Shown here piece by piece: positions 675 to 7,224 of a DNA stretch of 7,224 nucleotides (within the stretch, counting starts at the first letter, position 1; each line of letters begins with the position of its first letter). The stretch comes from Accumulibacter sp. Its GTDB lineage: Bacteria > Pseudomonadota > Gammaproteobacteria > Burkholderiales > Rhodocyclaceae. The translations under genes and the position numbers were made by a program. The notes under the pieces were generated by a model. The model searched no databases. It saw only the letters and a list, made by a program, of their open reading frames with translations, and was not told the origin of the DNA. The stretch spans positions 1-7,224 of the forward strand of contig JAISNE010000262.1 in NCBI GenBank assembly GCA_031276375.1, in the 5' to 3' direction.

Positions 675-1160
675 CTAGATGTGGTACGCCCAGCGTTTTC
701 CAAAATAACCCAGGACGCCGCCGATCGAGGCGCATGCGGCGGCGCCTTCCCATGAAGCCGAGACCAGAACCGCGATCGCCGCCCCGGCCATCGCTCCGCA
801 CACCACGCGTATCCAGGGGCCGGAACGGGCGTATTCCGGCTCTTCTTCCGTCACCAGGATGATGCCGAGGAAGACGCCGAATACGAAGAGCGCGAGAAAC
901 AAACGGATCAATACCGCCATCAGTGGAAAGAAGCTCTCCGGGGATTCCGTCCCCGGCGCTTCTCGCGCGCCTTCGGCCACGCCGACAAGCATTTCGGGAA
1001 CGGAGTTCACCAGGGCGAACACGAGGCCGCAGGCCAGGACGAGACGAATCTGGCTTCCGGTGATCCACGCCAACAGTTTCCCCCAGACGCTGCCTGGCCG
1101 CGGCGGGCGTGAGCCGTAGCGTTTTTGCGCGCGCCTGGACAGAGGGCCTCGATGCGCCAT
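675..1160 (-). CDS. Small membrane protein of unknown function
   Basis: This encodes a 161-residue protein that I do not recognise. The N-terminus (about 1-35) is basic and probably cytosolic. Hydrophobic segments follow at about 38-60, 77-103 and 117-152, the last long enough for two helices, so three or four membrane spans are likely. An acidic loop lies around 61-76, and an EEEPEY stretch follows the second span. The ATG is 7 bp after the permease stop, which suggests it is the last gene of the operon, although its ribosome binding site is weak and a later start is possible. GC-rich codon use like its neighbours and the clear hydrophobic pattern support a real gene. Function cannot be assigned; a link to envelope lipid transport rests on position only. 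Confidence 0.6.
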   Translation of the reverse strand: MAHRGPLSRRAQKRYGSRPPRPGSVWGKLLAWITGSQIRLVLACGLVFALVNSVPEMLVGVAEGAREAPGTESPESFFPLMAVLIRLFLALFVFGVFLGIILVTEEEPEYARSGPWIRVVCGAMAGAAIAVLVSASWEGAAACASIGGVLGYFGKRWAYHI

Positions 1161-1167
1161 CGCGGAG

Positions 1168-1920
1168 TCAATATCTCAGCTTGTAGCCGCTGCGCAGCAG
1201 CCTCAGCGCGCCGACGCCGACCGCCAGGAAGGCGGCGGCCGAAACGGCCAGGCTGATGAACGGCGAGACGTCGGAAACGCCGAAAAACCCGTAGCGGAGG
1301 CCGTCGATCAGGTAAAAGAAGGGGTTCAGATGCGACGCTTTCTGCCAGAAGGGCGGCAGCGAATGGATGGAATAGAAGACGCCGGAGAGCATGGTCAGCG
1401 GCAGGATCAGGAAATTCTGGAAGGCGGACAACTGGTCGAACTTGTCGGCCCAGACGCCGGCGATCAGGCCGAGCGATCCCATGATCGCTCCTCCGGCCAG
1501 CGCGAAGGCGAAAATCCACCACGGCGCGACGAATTGCAGCGGCGCGAAGCACGCGGTGACCGCCAGCACGCCCAGGCCGACCATCGCGCCGCGCAGCACC
1601 GCCGCGCCGACGTAGGCCAGGAAGAACTCGCCATACGAGATCGGCGGCAGGAGCACGAAAATGATGCTGCCGGTCACCTTGGCCTGGATCAGGCTGGACG
1701 AGCTGTTGGCGAAGGCGTTTTGCAATACCGACATCATGACCAGTCCGGGCACCAGAAAGGCCGTGTAGCGCAGGTTGTTGATCTCGATCCGGTTTTCCAG
1801 CACGTGCGCGAAAATCAGCAGGTAGAGCAGCGCCGTCAGCACCGGCGCCGCGACGGTCTGGAAAGCCACTTTCCAGAAACGCAGCACTTCCTTGTACAGC
1901 AGGGTGCGGAAACCGCTCAT
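1168..1920 (-). CDS. yadH: ABC-2 type transporter permease, YadH-like
   Basis: A 250-residue inner-membrane permease, the partner of the ATPase encoded just upstream. Six hydrophobic segments lie at about 20-40, 54-74, 98-125, 133-155, 165-185 and 222-242, as in ABC-2 permeases. The C-terminal family signature is present around 189-217 (PPFWQKASHLNP followed by GLRYGFFGVSD), closely matching E. coli YadH as I remember it. The ATG overlaps the ATPase stop (ATGA) and has a good GGAGG seven bases upstream; the frame stays open further upstream, but that stretch lies within the ATPase gene. The family exports drugs, polysaccharides or lipids; the YadGH substrate is unknown. Placement behind the mla genes suggests an envelope role, which is inference. 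Confidence 0.9.
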   Translation of the reverse strand: MSGFRTLLYKEVLRFWKVAFQTVAAPVLTALLYLLIFAHVLENRIEINNLRYTAFLVPGLVMMSVLQNAFANSSSSLIQAKVTGSIIFVLLPPISYGEFFLAYVGAAVLRGAMVGLGVLAVTACFAPLQFVAPWWIFAFALAGGAIMGSLGLIAGVWADKFDQLSAFQNFLILPLTMLSGVFYSIHSLPPFWQKASHLNPFFYLIDGLRYGFFGVSDVSPFISLAVSAAAFLAVGVGALRLLRSGYKLRY

Positions 1921-2858
1921 CGCGCGGCCTCCGGCCTTGCGGCGTCTTGCCCGCTCATGACCTCGATGAACACGTCTTCCAGATCGGTGGTGTTCATGCG
2001 CATGTCCCGGATCGGGCATCCCGCCTGGCGGATGGCGGCAAGCAGCGGTTCGACTTCCTCCACGCCGCCCAGCAGGACGTTCAGATAGCCCTCGCTGAAC
2101 GAGGCCCGCCGCGTCACCGCTTCGGGAAGCCTGTCCGCGGCTTCGACCCGCAAACTCAATTTGTGCACGGAAAAACGTTCCAGCAGGTGGCGCGTCGAGT
2201 CGAGCGCGACGACTCGGCCCTGTTTGAGCATGGCGATCCGCGCGCAGAGAGCTTCGGCTTCTTCGAGATAATGCGTGGTGAGAATGACCGTGTGCCCCTC
2301 GCCGTTCAGCCGCCGCACGAATTGCCACAAGCCCTGGCGCAATTCCACGTCGACGCCCGCCGTCGGCTCGTCCAGCACGATGACCGGCGGCCGGTGCACC
2401 AGGGCTTGGGCTACCAGCACGCGCCGCTTCATGCCGCCGGACAGATGGCGCATGTTGGTCTCCGCCTTGGCCGTCAGGTCGAGATTTTCGAGGATCTCGT
2501 CGATCCAGTCGTCGTTCCCGCGCAGGCCGAAATAGCCGGACTGGATGCGCAATGTCTCGCGCACGGTGAAAAACGGGTCGAACACCAGTTCCTGCGGAAC
2601 GACGCCCAGTTGCCGCCGCGCCTGACGGTAATCGTCCTGCACGTCGAAGCCCTTGACGCTCACCTTGCCGGAATCGGGACGCGTCAGACCCGCCAGGCAG
2701 GATATCAAGGTCGTTTTTCCAGCGCCGTTGGGGCCGAGCAGGCCGAAGAATTCACCGGCGCCGATTTCGAGGCAAACGCCGTCCAGCGCCTGAACGCGGC
2801 CAAAACGTTTGCTTACTCGCTGGATCGAGACGGCCGCGTTCATCGCCGTGGACGGCAT
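1917..2858 (-). CDS. yadG: ABC transporter ATP-binding protein, YadG-like
   Basis: A 313-residue cytosolic ATPase that would power the ABC-2 permease encoded after it. The nucleotide-binding domain is complete: Walker A GPNGAGKT (42-49), Q-loop at Gln89 (VVPQE), signature LSGGM (139-143), Walker B VIVLDEP (159-165), D-loop AGVD and H-loop His196 (TTH). The DEPTAGVDVELR and TTHYLEEAE segments closely match E. coli YadG. A C-terminal extension of about 90 residues ends in the LEDVFIEVM motif usual for ABC-2 ATPases. The gene starts 15 bp after mlaB. The ribosome binding site is weak, and Met6 (at 2843) is an equally plausible start because the similarity to YadG begins there. Confidence 0.93.
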   Translation of the reverse strand: MPSTAMNAAVSIQRVSKRFGRVQALDGVCLEIGAGEFFGLLGPNGAGKTTLISCLAGLTRPDSGKVSVKGFDVQDDYRQARRQLGVVPQELVFDPFFTVRETLRIQSGYFGLRGNDDWIDEILENLDLTAKAETNMRHLSGGMKRRVLVAQALVHRPPVIVLDEPTAGVDVELRQGLWQFVRRLNGEGHTVILTTHYLEEAEALCARIAMLKQGRVVALDSTRHLLERFSVHKLSLRVEAADRLPEAVTRRASFSEGYLNVLLGGVEEVEPLLAAIRQAGCPIRDMRMNTTDLEDVFIEVMSGQDAARPEAAR

Positions 2859-2873
2859 CGCATCGCCCGCCGC

Positions 2874-3164
2874 TCAGGCCAGCGGAAGCGATCCGGCCAC
2901 GCCGTGCACGCTGGCGAGATTGAGCAGGCTGGCCGGGGGATCGATGACGCGCAAGGCTATTCCGCGCGTCGCGGCGGCGCGCCGCCAGCCGAAGAGCACG
3001 GCCAGCGCCGAGGAATCGACCTCGCGCACCGGCGCCAGATCGAGCGTCACGTCCCTGGCCGTTTCCGCGCCCAAAAGGCCGCGCCCCGCTTCAAACAGCG
3101 CGCGCGCATTGGCGATGACCATGGGCCGGGTCACCCGGTAGGTATTTCCGTCCTTGTCGATCAT
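2874..3164 (-). CDS. mlaB: MlaB, STAS-domain subunit of the Mla transporter
   Basis: A 96-residue STAS-domain protein. In E. coli, MlaB binds the ATPase MlaF on the cytoplasmic face and is needed for assembly and activity of the MlaFEDB complex. The fold is suggested by beta strands around VTLDLAPV and IALRVID, and by the conserved loop before helix 2, VDSSALAVLF (about 48-57), whose serines occupy the position of the STAS phosphorylation or contact site. No other domain fits in this length. The ATG overlaps the mlaC stop (ATGA), indicating translational coupling, and a GGGA stretch lies just upstream. Sequence similarity within this family is low, so the assignment relies on the motif plus its position after mlaC. 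Confidence 0.88.
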   Translation of the reverse strand: MIDKDGNTYRVTRPMVIANARALFEAGRGLLGAETARDVTLDLAPVREVDSSALAVLFGWRRAAATRGIALRVIDPPASLLNLASVHGVAGSLPLA

Positions 3165-3793
3165 TTCTTCCCGGCTTCGAGCTGCCTGTTCTTGTCGGAC
3201 AACATCTTGATGAGACCGTCGACGCCGTTGGCGCGCACTTCCTGGGTAAAGGTATCGCGGTAGTTGGTCACCAGACTGACGCCGGCCACGATCACGTCAT
3301 AAACCCGCCATCCCTCCGGCGTTTTCCCGAGGGAATAATCGAGCTGGATCGGCTTGCCGCCCGGTTGCAGGATTTCCGTCCTGACAAGCACGTCCGCGTC
3401 GCCGTCCGGCAGCTTGGTCGGTTTGTAACGCGCGCTCTGATCCTTGTACCCGGTCAGCGCGTTCGAATAGGTGCGCACCAGCAGCGTCTTGAACTCTTCG
3501 GCCAGCCGCTTCTTCTGCTCGGGACCGGCCTTGTTCCATTCCTTCCCCATCGCCAGCGCCGTCATGCGCTGGAAGTTGAAATACGGCAACACCTTGGCGT
3601 CGACCAGTTCGACCGCCTTGCGCGCATCGCCGCCCTGGATGTCCTTGTCCTGGCGGACGATGGACAGGACATCCTCGGTGACGCGCCGGATCAGCGCGTC
3701 GGGAGAATCCTCTTCCGCCGATGCGGACGAGGCGGACGAAGCAAACGAAAGGGACAGGGCCAGCCCCAGCAGCAGCGAAAAAAACCATTTCAT
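3161..3793 (-). CDS. mlaC: MlaC, periplasmic phospholipid carrier
   Basis: A 210-residue soluble carrier that shuttles phospholipids across the periplasm between the MlaA and MlaFEDB complexes (Ttg2D/MlaC family). Residues 1-26 form a Sec signal peptide: Lys2, a hydrophobic core LLLGLALSLSF, and a signal peptidase I site ASA|EED. Family motifs follow: VLPYFNFQRMTALAMG (68-83), the helix FKTLLVRTYSNAL (101-113) and the conserved C-terminal GWRVYDVIVAGVSLVTNYRDTF region (161-182). There is no cysteine. A strong GAGG Shine-Dalgarno lies 9 nt before the ATG. The first 36 codons belong to the 784-bp tandem duplication, and a diverged copy of them begins the chimeric mlaA upstream. The rest of the gene is single copy and intact. 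Confidence 0.95.
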   Translation of the reverse strand: MKWFFSLLLGLALSLSFASSASSASAEEDSPDALIRRVTEDVLSIVRQDKDIQGGDARKAVELVDAKVLPYFNFQRMTALAMGKEWNKAGPEQKKRLAEEFKTLLVRTYSNALTGYKDQSARYKPTKLPDGDADVLVRTEILQPGGKPIQLDYSLGKTPEGWRVYDVIVAGVSLVTNYRDTFTQEVRANGVDGLIKMLSDKNRQLEAGKK

Positions 3794-4468
3794 GATCGAT
3801 TACCTCGAAAAACGCTCATTCCTCCTCGCCATCCCCGTCATCGTCGAGCGGCGGCGGATTCCCGTCGTATATGGCGTTGCGCCGCATCTGAAAATATGCG
3901 TCGCGGATATAACGGTATTTGTCGAACGCCGCGGCCTCGACGACCTTGTCGGCCGACAGCAGGCTGGCGCGCAGATCGATGAAACGCACGCCGGCCAGGG
4001 TGTTGCGCGCGCGCGCGTCGTGCGGGAAGCGGAGCGGGTCGAGCGCGGCGTCGGCGGCGAAACCGAGGGTGTCGCGCGCGTTCCTGGGGCCAAGGATCGG
4101 CCAGTACAGGTACGGCCCCTCGCCAACCCCCCATCTGCCCAGCGTCTGCCCGAAATCCTCGGCGTGTTTTTCCAGCCCGAGATCGCTGGCCACGTCGATC
4201 AGTCCGGCGATCCCCACCGTCGTGTTGACCAGCACGCGCCCGACGTCCGAAGCCCCTTCGGTGATCTTCCCCTGCAGCAGATTGTTGGCCGCGATCCACG
4301 GATCGGCGATATTGCCGAAGAAATTCCCGATGCCCGTCCGCACCGGTCCGGGGACGACCTCGTCATACCCCTGGGCGACCGGCTTGACCACCGCGTCGAT
4401 GCCCTCGTTGACCGAGAACATGGTCCGGTTGAACCCCTCGAAGGGATCTCTGGAATGACCCGCCGTCG
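3685..4468. repeat. Tandem duplication, copy 1 (784 bp)
   Basis: First unit of a head-to-tail direct repeat with a period of exactly 784 bp. It covers the first 36 codons of intact mlaC, the 22-bp spacer and the MlaA part of the chimeric gene. Hand alignment against 4469-5252 gives about 21 substitutions and no indel (about 97% identity); 20 are transitions and one is a transversion. Identity stops abruptly at both ends. Confidence 0.95.
3803..3806 (-). promoter_or_regulatory. Ribosome binding site of mlaC
   Basis: On the minus strand GAGG (continuing as GAGGTAAT) lies 9 nt before the mlaC ATG, inside the 22-bp mlaA-mlaC spacer. This supports the chosen start and explains how the duplicated copy can be translated. 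Confidence 0.75.
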
Positions 4469-4577
4469 GCCGGATCAGCGCGTCGGGAGAATCCCCTTCC
4501 GCCGATACGGACGAAGCGGACGAAACAAACGAAAGGGACAGGGTCAGTCCCAGCAGCAGCGAAAAAAACCATTTCAT
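3816..4577 (-). CDS. Chimeric MlaA with MlaC signal peptide (duplicate)
   Basis: A 253-residue in-frame fusion made by the tandem duplication. Residues 1-36 copy the MlaC N-terminus: signal peptide with Lys2, core LLLGLTLSLSF, and a signal peptidase I site VSA|EGD after residue 26. From Thr38 onward it is MlaA, with DPFEGFNRTMFSVNEGID (44-61), the GVGEGPYLYWPILGP block (149-163) and the acidic tail. It lacks the lipobox and contains no cysteine, so it should be exported but not lipidated. Compared with the native MlaA it has seven substitutions (native numbering A42T, V114A, F161L, T175P, V178A, V185A, P198S) and no stop. It is 22 bp downstream of native mlaA and uses a copied mlaC ribosome binding site. 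It may be a functional paralogue, a dosage copy or a relic still open; a genome-assembly error is less likely given the divergence. Confidence 0.85.
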   Translation of the reverse strand: MKWFFSLLLGLTLSLSFVSSASSVSAEGDSPDALIRPTAGHSRDPFEGFNRTMFSVNEGIDAVVKPVAQGYDEVVPGPVRTGIGNFFGNIADPWIAANNLLQGKITEGASDVGRVLVNTTVGIAGLIDVASDLGLEKHAEDFGQTLGRWGVGEGPYLYWPILGPRNARDTLGFAADAALDPLRFPHDARARNTLAGVRFIDLRASLLSADKVVEAAAFDKYRYIRDAYFQMRRNAIYDGNPPPLDDDGDGEEE

Positions 4578-5252
4578 GATCGATTACCTCGAAAAACGCT
4601 CATTCCTCTTCGCCATCCCCGTCATCGTCGAGCGGCGGCGGATTCCCGTCGTATATGGCGTTGCGCCGCATCTGAAAATATGCGTCGCGGATATAGCGGT
4701 ATTTGTCGAACGCCGCGGCCTCGACGACCTTGTCGGCCGGCAGCAGGCTGGCGCGCAGATCGATGAAACGCACGCCGACCAGGGTGTTGCGCGCGCGCAC
4801 ATCGTGCGTGAAGCGGAGCGGGTCGAGCGCGGCGTCGGCGGCGAAACCGAAGGTGTCGCGCGCGTTCCTGGGGCCAAGGATCGGCCAGTACAGGTACGGC
4901 CCCTCGCCGACCCCCCATCTGCCCAGCGTCTGCCCGAAATCCTCGGCGTGCTTTTCCAGCCCGAGATCGCTGGCCACGTCGATCAGTCCGACGATTCCCA
5001 CCGTCGTGTTGACCAGCACGCGCCCGACGTCCGAAGCCCCTTCGGTGATCTTCCCCTGCAGCAGATTGTTGGCCGCGATCCACGGATCGGCGATGTTGCC
5101 GAAGAAATTCCCGATGCCCGTCCGCACCGGTCCGGGGACGACCTCGTCATACCCCTGGGCGACCGGCTTGACCACCGCGTCGATGCCCTCGTTGACCGAG
5201 AACATGGCCCGGTTGAACCCCTCGAAGGGGTCTCTGGAATGACCCGCCGTCG
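4469..5252. repeat. Tandem duplication, copy 2 (784 bp)
   Basis: Second unit, directly abutting the first with no intervening base. It contains the MlaC-derived start of the chimeric gene, a spacer identical to that of copy 1, and native mlaA from about codon 28 to its stop. Differences are denser in the 109-bp mlaC-derived part (6) than in the mlaA part (15 in about 650 bp), and none falls in the 22-bp spacer. Confidence 0.95.
4587..4590 (-). promoter_or_regulatory. Duplicated ribosome binding site of chimeric mlaA
   Basis: The GAGG of the mlaC ribosome binding site is repeated exactly 784 bp away, 9 nt before the ATG of the chimera. The spacer copies are identical, so translation initiation of the fusion should resemble that of mlaC. 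Confidence 0.7.
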
Positions 5253-5331
5253 ACGCGCACCCCGTCGCGCCCAACGCCGCGGCAACGACGGCGAAAGCGG
5301 CGACACCACGACCCGCCATGCGATTCTTCAC
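4600..5331 (-). CDS. mlaA: MlaA (VacJ), outer-membrane phospholipid lipoprotein
   Basis: A 243-residue lipoprotein. MlaA sits in the outer membrane, in E. coli bound to porins, and passes misplaced outer-leaflet phospholipids to MlaC. The N-terminus is basic and hydrophobic and ends in a lipobox-like ATG|C at Cys25, so lipidation by signal peptidase II is expected. VacJ family blocks follow: DPFEGFNRAMFSVNEGID (34-51), NNLLQGKITEGASDVGRVLVN (88-108) and GVGEGPYLYWPILGP (139-153). The tail (about 235-243) is strongly acidic. Translation probably starts at GTG 5331, because AAAGGA lies 6 nt upstream; the ATG four codons later has no such site. The gene begins 15 bp after mlaD. Its last 216 or so codons are in the tandem duplication. 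Confidence 0.95.
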   Translation of the reverse strand: MKNRMAGRGVAAFAVVAAALGATGCASTAGHSRDPFEGFNRAMFSVNEGIDAVVKPVAQGYDEVVPGPVRTGIGNFFGNIADPWIAANNLLQGKITEGASDVGRVLVNTTVGIVGLIDVASDLGLEKHAEDFGQTLGRWGVGEGPYLYWPILGPRNARDTFGFAADAALDPLRFTHDVRARNTLVGVRFIDLRASLLPADKVVEAAAFDKYRYIRDAYFQMRRNAIYDGNPPPLDDDGDGEEE

Positions 5332-5337
5332 CCGCTG

Positions 5338-5343
5338 TCCTTT
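5338..5343 (-). promoter_or_regulatory. Ribosome binding site deciding the GTG start of mlaA
   Basis: AAAGGA on the minus strand lies 6 nt before GTG at 5331-5329, in the 15-bp mlaD-mlaA gap. This spacing favours the GTG over the ATG at 5319-5317. Confidence 0.65.
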
Positions 5344-5346
5344 CGC

Positions 5347-5817
5347 TCACTTGCTGTCAGCCGTCTCGGACGCCTTGCTGAACATGAACTGGCTGATCAA
5401 CTTTTCCAACACCACCGCCGACTGGGTCTTGGCGACCACATCGCCGGGGTTCAACATTTTCTCGTCGCCGCCGGCGTCGAGGCCGATGTACTGTTCCCCG
5501 AGCAGGCCCGCCGTCAGGATCGACGCGAACGTATCCCTGGGAAAATGGTAGCGACCATCAATGGTCATCGTCACCACGGCTTCATAAGTCTGCGCGTCGA
5601 AACTGATTTCCGCCACCCTGCCGACCACGACACCCGCGCTTTTCACCGGGCCGCGCACCTTCAGGCCGCCGATGTTATCAAACTTCGCGGTCAGCCGGTA
5701 CGTTTCGGCAAAATTGGCCGACGAGACGTTCCCCACGCGCAACGCCAGGAACAGCACGGCGGCAAAGCCGATGGCCACGAAAAAACCCACCCACAGATCA
5801 AGCAGCTTGCGATTCAT
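5347..5817 (-). CDS. mlaD: MlaD, MCE-domain substrate-binding protein
   Basis: A 156-residue protein anchored in the inner membrane. MlaD forms a hexameric ring on the periplasmic face of MlaE and exchanges phospholipid with MlaC. One N-terminal transmembrane helix (about 8-27, WVGFFVAIGFAAVLFLALRV) is not followed by a cleavage site. It leads into the MCE domain (about 38-120) with the typical YRLTAKFDNIGGLKVRGPVKSAGV and LGEQYIGLDAGG segments. The length matches usual proteobacterial MlaD. The start ATG overlaps the mlaE stop by one base (TGATG) and has GGGGG five bases upstream, so translation is coupled. The frame stays open further upstream within mlaE, but that extension lies over another gene and is rejected. 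Confidence 0.95.
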   Translation of the reverse strand: MNRKLLDLWVGFFVAIGFAAVLFLALRVGNVSSANFAETYRLTAKFDNIGGLKVRGPVKSAGVVVGRVAEISFDAQTYEAVVTMTIDGRYHFPRDTFASILTAGLLGEQYIGLDAGGDEKMLNPGDVVAKTQSAVVLEKLISQFMFSKASETADSK

Positions 5818-6623
5818 CAAATCCCCCGGAACATGAACGAGGTCAACACCAGATCGAGCGCCAGGATCGCCAGCGCCGAGTACACCACCGTCCGCTTGAT
5901 CGAACTCGAAACGCCCTCGGCCGTCGGAACGGCGTCGTAACCCTCGAAAACCGCGATCAGCGAAACCGCGGCGCCAAAGACAAAACTCTTGACGATGCCG
6001 TTCCACACGTCCAGATGGAAGTCCACCGACCCCTGCATCTGCGACCAGAACGCGCCTTCGTCGACGCCGATCAGCACCACCCCGACGAGATAGCCGCCGA
6101 ACACCCCGACGGCCGAGAACAGCGCCGCCAGGAGCGGCATCGAAATGACTCCGCCCCAGAAGCGCGGCGCCACCACGCGGGCGATCGGGTTGACCGCCAT
6201 CATGTCCATCGCCGTCAACTGCTCGGTCGCCTTCATCAGCCCGATTTCGGCGGTGATCGACGAACCCGCGCGCGAAGCGAAAAGCAGCGCCGACACCACC
6301 GGGCCAAGCTCGCGGGTCAGCGACAGCGCCACCAGCACCCCCAGCGCCTCGGACGAGCCGTAGCGCTGCAAGGTCTCGTAGCCCTGCATGCCCAGCACCA
6401 TGCCGATGAACAGGCCGGAAACGAGGATGATCAGCAGCGACTGGAAGCCGGAAAAATAGACCTCGCGGATCGTCAGATGCAGACGGCGGAACGACTGGCC
6501 CGAGTAGACCAGGATCATCATGAAGAAACGGGCCGCGAAGCCGAGCGTCTGCAAGGCATCGTTCATGCGGTGGCCGGCGCCGCGGATCAGTCCGGTCAGC
6601 AAGGCAAGCGCGCCGTCACGCAC
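5817..6623 (-). CDS. mlaE: MlaE, inner-membrane permease of the Mla transporter
   Basis: A 268-residue permease of the MlaE/YrbE family, forming the dimeric membrane core of MlaFEDB. An N-terminal amphipathic segment (about 20-50) precedes about five membrane spans (about 58-78, 94-116, 150-182, 206-226 and 246-266). The family core is very clear: FIGMVLGMQGY (72-82), ALSLTRELGPVVSALLFASR (99-118) followed by AGSSITAEIGLMKATEQL, and GYDAVPTAEGV (228-238). The start is GTG at 6623, overlapping mlaF by 8 bp; comparison with the E. coli protein as I remember it supports this N-terminal length. The ATG at codon 20 is the alternative. No good ribosome binding site is close, so translational coupling to mlaF is likely. 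Confidence 0.95.
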   Translation of the reverse strand: MRDGALALLTGLIRGAGHRMNDALQTLGFAARFFMMILVYSGQSFRRLHLTIREVYFSGFQSLLIILVSGLFIGMVLGMQGYETLQRYGSSEALGVLVALSLTRELGPVVSALLFASRAGSSITAEIGLMKATEQLTAMDMMAVNPIARVVAPRFWGGVISMPLLAALFSAVGVFGGYLVGVVLIGVDEGAFWSQMQGSVDFHLDVWNGIVKSFVFGAAVSLIAVFEGYDAVPTAEGVSSSIKRTVVYSALAILALDLVLTSFMFRGI

Positions 6624-7224
6624 GGAAGGCCCCGCGCATCAACTCCTCCGCGAACGGAGGCGCCGGATAATGGAAAGGCACCGGGCCGTCGGCCTCGCCG
6701 AAAACGAACTGATGCACGAAAGGATCGGTCGAGGCGCGGATTTCATCGGGCGTTCCCCGCGCCACGATCTGCCCGTCGGAAACGAAGTAGACGTAATCGA
6801 CGATCAACAGCGCCTCCTGCACGTCGTGGGTCACCAGCAGCGTCGTCGCGCCGAGCGCGTCGTTCAGCCGGCGGATCAACTGCCCGATCACCCCCATCGA
6901 AATCGGATCGAGCCCGGCAAACGGCTCGTCGTACATGATCAGCATCGGATCGAGCGCGATCGCCCGCGCCAGCGCCACGCGCCGCGCCATTCCGCCGGAC
7001 AGCTCGGAAGGCATCAAGCGATGCGCGCCGCGCAAGCCGACGGCATCGAGCTTCATCAGCACCATATCCTGGATGAGTTCCTCGGGCAGATCCGTATGCT
7101 CGCGCATCAGGTAAGCCACGTTGTCGAAAACCGAAATATCCGTAAACAGCGCGCCGAACTGGAACAGCATGCCCATGCGCCGGCGCATCGCGTAAAGCTC
7201 GCCGTGCGTCATCCGCGGCACCGA
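6616..7224 (-). CDS. mlaF: MlaF, ATPase of the Mla transporter (5' end cut off)
   Basis: The C-terminal 202 residues of the ATPase that drives MlaFEDB. The gene runs off the right edge, so the Walker A motif and roughly 65-70 N-terminal residues are not visible. Visible motifs, counted from GTG codon 7221, are the Q-loop LFQFGALF (Gln21), signature LSGGM (74-78), Walker B LIMYDEP (94-100), D-loop GLDP (103-106) and H-loop VTHD (130-133). The family-specific tail GEADGPVPFHYP (about 175-186) is present; in E. coli the MlaF tail contacts MlaB. The blocks MLFQFGALFTDISVFDNVAY and MKLDAVGLRGAHRLMPSELS are near-identical to E. coli MlaF as I remember it. The first visible GTG or ATG is an internal codon, not a start. 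Confidence 0.95.
   Translation of the reverse strand, partial: SVPRMTHGELYAMRRRMGMLFQFGALFTDISVFDNVAYLMREHTDLPEELIQDMVLMKLDAVGLRGAHRLMPSELSGGMARRVALARAIALDPMLIMYDEPFAGLDPISMGVIGQLIRRLNDALGATTLLVTHDVQEALLIVDYVYFVSDGQIVARGTPDEIRASTDPFVHQFVFGEADGPVPFHYPAPPFAEELMRGAFRA

Follow-up and report, generated by a model that had tools for sequence, protein, structure and literature searches.

In the window analysed here, a stretch of 7,224 nucleotides from an Accumulibacter sp. genome, two abutting 784-bp direct repeats straddle the boundary between mlaA and mlaC, and across the joint between them the leader of MlaC is read in frame into the mature part of MlaA, giving a chimeric gene of 253 codons that lies between its two parents. 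We favour, at somewhat better than even confidence, the reading that the repeat is a real and recent duplication, that the product of its in-frame chimera would leave the cytoplasm through Sec and remain unanchored after signal peptidase I had cleaved it, and that this product represents a nascent, mostly superfluous paralogue under relaxed constraint, seen on one contig.

The repeats belong to a minus-strand operon whose genes, as identified from open reading frames and Pfam matches, follow the order mlaF-E-D-A-chimera-C-B, after which an ABC-2 export pair adjoins (Table 1). Both parents are open, as a sequence-only reading of this DNA had already held; the parent mlaA begins with GTG and has an ATG four codons further in. 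The MlaA genes found in the source genome comprise the parent and the chimera only, a third match being the mlaC leader. Further along the window, downstream of the ABC-2 exporter pair, lies an open frame of 161 residues (675-1160, minus strand) whose Pfam matches are weak and below the cut-off, the best being a glycine zipper; short inverted and tandem repeats of CAGAAGACAGA-like units occupy positions 480-580 (arms 480-503 and 543-566, 88% complementary), and beside them lies a second inverted pair, with arms at 309-326 and 363-380.

Table 1. Features of the window, with positions counted from its first nucleotide
Feature	Positions	Strand	Basis
mlaF-like ABC ATPase	6616..7224	-	Pfam; truncated by window end
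mlaE	5817..6623	-	Pfam
mlaD	5347..5817	-	Pfam
Parent mlaA, lipobox-type cysteine at residue 25	4600..5331	-	ORF, Pfam, Cys scan
GAGG, ribosome-binding-like stretch of the chimera	4587..4590	-	sequence, judged by eye; identical to that of mlaC at 3803-3806
Chimeric gene, MlaC leader (36 codons) + mature MlaA, 253 aa, cysteine-free	3816..4577	-	ORF, Pfam MlaA 250.8 bits
mlaC, intact, 210 aa	3161..3793	-	ORF, Pfam
mlaB-like STAS gene	2874..3164	-	Pfam
Repeat copy 1: mlaC start (leader), 22-nt gap, chimeric mlaA mature part	3685..4468	.	direct-repeat comparison
Repeat copy 2: chimera leader, 22-nt gap, parent mlaA mature part	4469..5252	.	direct-repeat comparison
Novel junction between copies	4468..4469	.	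repeat comparison, sequence around joint
GACGCGC, mlaC-side breakpoint	3680..3686	.	plus-strand sequence
GACGCGC, mlaA-side breakpoint	5252..5258	.	plus-strand sequence

The repeats claimed in the sequence-only reading were recovered exactly, with a start-to-start spacing of 784, and a 784-bp repeat of 97% identity is beyond chance. Each copy holds the first 36 leader codons of mlaC plus one base, the 22-nt gap and mature mlaA. The copies differ by 21 mismatches (2.7%), 20 of them transitions, without a single indel; six fall in the leader (four replacements), 15 in mature MlaA (seven replacements, the number given earlier, to which the four in the mlaC-derived leader are to be added) and none in the gap. 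A length of 784 leaves a remainder of one when divided by three, yet the frames of mlaC and mlaA meet at the joint, where 36 MlaC codons lead through a proline codon into mature MlaA with no internal stop, so that the long open frame announced from the sequence is indeed there, running from an ATG through 253 codons without stop or indel. Partial tandem duplication can make chimeric genes by placing a copy head to tail, with intact parents and a new gene at the joint; the window resembles such cases in its abutting direct repeats, in the frame that stays open across the joint and in its undamaged parents, and it differs in that, within one operon, a lipoprotein leader has given way to what is predicted to be a plain export leader.

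What the chimera has taken from MlaC (PF05494) is the leader, the start codon and the 22 nt upstream, which are identical before both genes; the MlaC domain itself is wholly absent. The two leaders share 32 of 36 residues. Judged by eye, that of the chimera reads MK...LLLGLTLSLSF...SSVSA before E27, with a charged start, a hydrophobic stretch and a V-S-A end. Signal peptidase I cleavage follows the (-3,-1) rule, which this V-S-A would suit. A cut after residue 26 would leave a mature start eight residues longer than that of the parent. The only cysteine of the parent is residue 25, whose TGC surroundings resemble a lipobox, whereas the 253 residues of the chimera contain none, and with it the lipobox of an MlaA/VacJ lipoprotein is missing; without a cysteine the chimera therefore cannot carry the MlaA lipid anchor. 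No homologue that could be scored lacks a cysteine of this type: its column is occupied by Cys in 38 of 38 relatives (alignment A1); of the 120 homologues listed, out of 6759 in all, 114 have a Cys no more than 20 residues ahead of the DPxExFN motif (the parent, P0001, being among the 114, and the remaining six starting past the motif, where they cannot be scored); and the same holds for all 39 loci scored out of 116, among which some genomes are represented twice.

In its full domain, its conserved columns and its acidic tail the chimera resembles an MlaA/VacJ outer-membrane lipoprotein (PF04333; 8i8r_D, 5nuo_D, 5nuq_G), and it is set apart by its MlaC-derived leader, its longer mature start and its absent lipobox. 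Its Pfam MlaA score is 250.8 bits against 251.1 for the parent (cut-off 25), and it aligns with the solved MlaA chain 8i8r_D at 113.7 bits. It keeps 79 of the 81 columns invariant in the 38 relatives (chimera not counted), the two departures being the lipobox Cys and residue 42, where the relatives have P and the parent, too, has S. None of the seven replaced sites lies at an invariant column, while P208S strikes a nearly invariant one (35 of 38 relatives). The C-terminal acidic tail, LDDDGDGEEE, is identical to that of the parent. T52 is the residue found in the solved chains 8i8r_D and 5nuo_D, so that the changes of the chimera are not obviously damaging. An AlphaFold model of the chimera built on the 40-row alignment A1 was discarded (mean pLDDT 50.6, pTM 0.29).

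The divergence between the mature parts of chimera and parent (dN 0.0145, dS 0.052) gives a ratio of 0.28, which, in view of the transition excess, does not fall clearly short of the 1 expected under neutrality: the 7 replacements against 8 silent changes depart from neutrality with p 0.019 when no transition bias is assumed and with p 0.107 when only transitions are allowed. The three closest other pairs of the genus have ratios of 0.02, 0.05 and 0.09, so that replacements make up a larger share in the chimera than in any of them, and Fisher tests of their replacements and silent changes against the 7:8 of the chimera return p 0.002, 0.05 and 0.18, respectively, one of them clear. For the nearest relatives (L004, L006, L113) the pairwise ratios span 0.155-0.302, a range that includes the 0.28 of chimera and parent, and the chimera-free pairs with usable dS (341 of 406) have a median of 0.13 and a maximum of 0.32. 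The ratio by itself decides nothing, and more can be read from the direction of the replacements. At residues 52, 171, 188 and 208 the majority of 28 relatives (A in 24, F in 21, V in 24 and P in 22) has the parent residue, four times out of four; at the other three sites the relatives give no direction. Over the differing residues 27 of the 28 relatives, which are not independent of one another, agree with the parent more than with the chimera, L023 being the exception. In the leader, the MlaC of L113 has the T of the chimera at residue 12, where the MlaC of the window has A, and therefore not every change need lie on the chimera. A maximum-likelihood tree assigns the parent a branch of about zero and the chimera one of 0.022 (DNA) or 0.038 (protein); the zero is probably a boundary estimate, and it is discounted because the relatives split at the synonymous differences. 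On balance, the lopsided replacements would suit a real paralogue under weaker constraint more than two strain alleles, although the small numbers prove neither selection nor function. The claim that tandem duplication had produced a new gene with a new targeting signal is upheld as far as the MlaC leader, the gene's own ATG and the duplicated GAGG go, and is open to doubt where a working gene is meant, given the missing cysteine, the preference for the parent at four of the seven replaced sites, which are those that could be resolved, and a dN/dS not clearly below 1.

An assembly artefact, with two strain variants placed head to tail or a library molecule that was itself chimeric, is the strongest of the rival explanations, and we consider it unlikely. 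The source genome is fragmentary (2.3 Mb in 451 contigs, 75% complete), and among 90% clusters the contig of the window is the only one listed for the MlaA pair (P0001, 2 members, 1 contig) and for MlaC (P0121, 1 member, 1 contig), no second assembly of the same species having been seen in the collections searched. Strain variants can show 2.7% divergence, which places the two copies within their range. However, the two sides have just 7 nt in common at the breakpoints, in our view too few for assembly by overlap; the joint is, as it happens, in frame; and the replacements are skewed towards the chimera, as would not be expected of two working alleles. Moreover, the longest run identical between the copies is 112 nt, so that a k above 112, if used in this assembly, would have kept them apart.

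A shade less probable, in our estimation, is that selection maintains the chimera as a second form, either an unanchored MlaA working with MlaC in the periplasm or one that amphipathic helices of its own hold in the outer membrane. The open frame, the invariant columns and acidic tail that it retains, and a dN/dS that also fits ordinary constraint on the chimera would all suit such a form, as would the published passages according to which E. coli MlaA sits within the bilayer (PMC10719372) and lies deep in it in simulations, the simulated form being triacylated (PMC7139219). Against this, the mature part would stay stop-free after 15 random changes with a probability of 0.69-0.79 anyway, the resolved changes strike sites where relatives favour the parent residue, and the form is shared by none of the 27 other genomes of the genus.

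The history of the joint bears on the same question. The word GACGCGC occurs at both breakpoints, and at least 7 nt in common within 8 nt on either side are found in 1.7% of about 20,000 random place pairs (window 1200-7200), a coincidence that was sought post hoc. A clean join at GACGCGC would yield a 788-bp unit, out of frame and with a stop after 72 codons; the joint as observed is 4 nt shorter and open, which speaks for the selected form. Two histories would account for this: a joint that was blunt at the outset and had one chance in three of falling in frame, or a later small loss that opened the frame. The fullest version of the latter, namely that the duplication closed out of frame at GACGCGC (788 bp) and a 4-nt loss then opened the frame, yielding a soluble second MlaA, kept by selection, which encounters MlaC off the outer membrane, so that a lipoprotein has become a periplasmic protein within its own operon, strikes us as a long shot. 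That the duplication matters for expression only, through the spacing or dosage of mlaC and the downstream genes, with an irrelevant and quickly degraded chimeric protein, accords with the upstream context common to mlaC and the chimera and is very improbable, no sequence feature singling it out.

Searches for other cases bore out the statement that no Mla operon with two such MlaA forms was known, in that none of those made in genomes, proteins and literature returned one. The related genomes in which an mlaA frame with an MlaC-like leader was to be sought gave none among 27 in the genus: a single MlaA match, starting at chimera residue 36-41, is present in 26, and one (59% complete) has no match. 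Across the order, 187 of 199 other genomes have an MlaA match, and among the matches listed none starts at residue 1 save that of the window itself. Four listed matches that start before residue 30 (G129, G078, G203, G024) were rejected as chimeras, all four having a lipobox-type cysteine and lipoprotein-type leaders. By a count made by eye, two matches appear in 16 rows, of which one or more (G029 among them) reflect a gene split between contigs; in some genomes (e.g., G063, G185, G202) the two lie on separate contigs, and therefore MlaA paralogues per se are not peculiar to the window. A search of 5.8 billion proteins with the junction (residues 1-58), which reaches only sequences with common short exact words, scored 17 candidates and matched only MlaC on the window's own contig. 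In a tblastn search L034, matched over query residues 1-244, gave the appearance of another chimera; it proved to be an ordinary operon in which MlaA has the usual lipoprotein leader and direct repeats of 40 nt or longer are absent. The nearest named records, among the best 80 of 193 loci (from which the records of the window's own genome are possibly excluded), are Accumulibacter sp. MAGs (L033-L036, 78-80% identity) and a betaproteobacterium (L087, 79%). In Accumulibacter sp. isolate Po218_bin15 (L036:5449-6126, and likewise L007 of G020, which probably represents one and the same genome) an extra open frame lies between mlaA and mlaC, the boundary at which the window's duplication sits, and Pfam gives no match for it at E values up to 1. 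Among the listed titles and opening lines of abstracts on the lipobox, lipidation, duplication, fusion and second copies of MlaA/VacJ/MlaC, and on fusion by tandem duplication in general, none describes a second, unanchored MlaA, and the literature on termite gut and Accumulibacter yielded no such case.

Returning to the reading that we prefer, a recent duplication with an unanchored and dispensable product, the parent MlaA is predicted to reach the outer membrane as lipoproteins do. In E. coli, MlaA sits next to porins as a channel in the membrane, and its acidic tail helix recruits MlaC (PMC10719372). The chimera would presumably be translated along with the operon; its MlaC leader is predicted to send it out via Sec, and after cleavage by signal peptidase I the product would be released unanchored, bypassing the Lol lipoprotein route. 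By analogy with E. coli, the retained acidic tail could still let it bind MlaC in the periplasm, while it would probably get to the outer membrane poorly. It may thus be regarded as a nascent, largely superfluous copy drifting under relaxed constraint, and it is likely a young gene without a settled use. The passages and titles of the MlaA literature that we surveyed contain no test of the need of MlaA for its lipid anchor. If the duplication is real, the window would offer a natural test of that need, and it would show a lipoprotein caught in the course of re-targeting by a leader swap inside its own operon, with both parents still adjoining.
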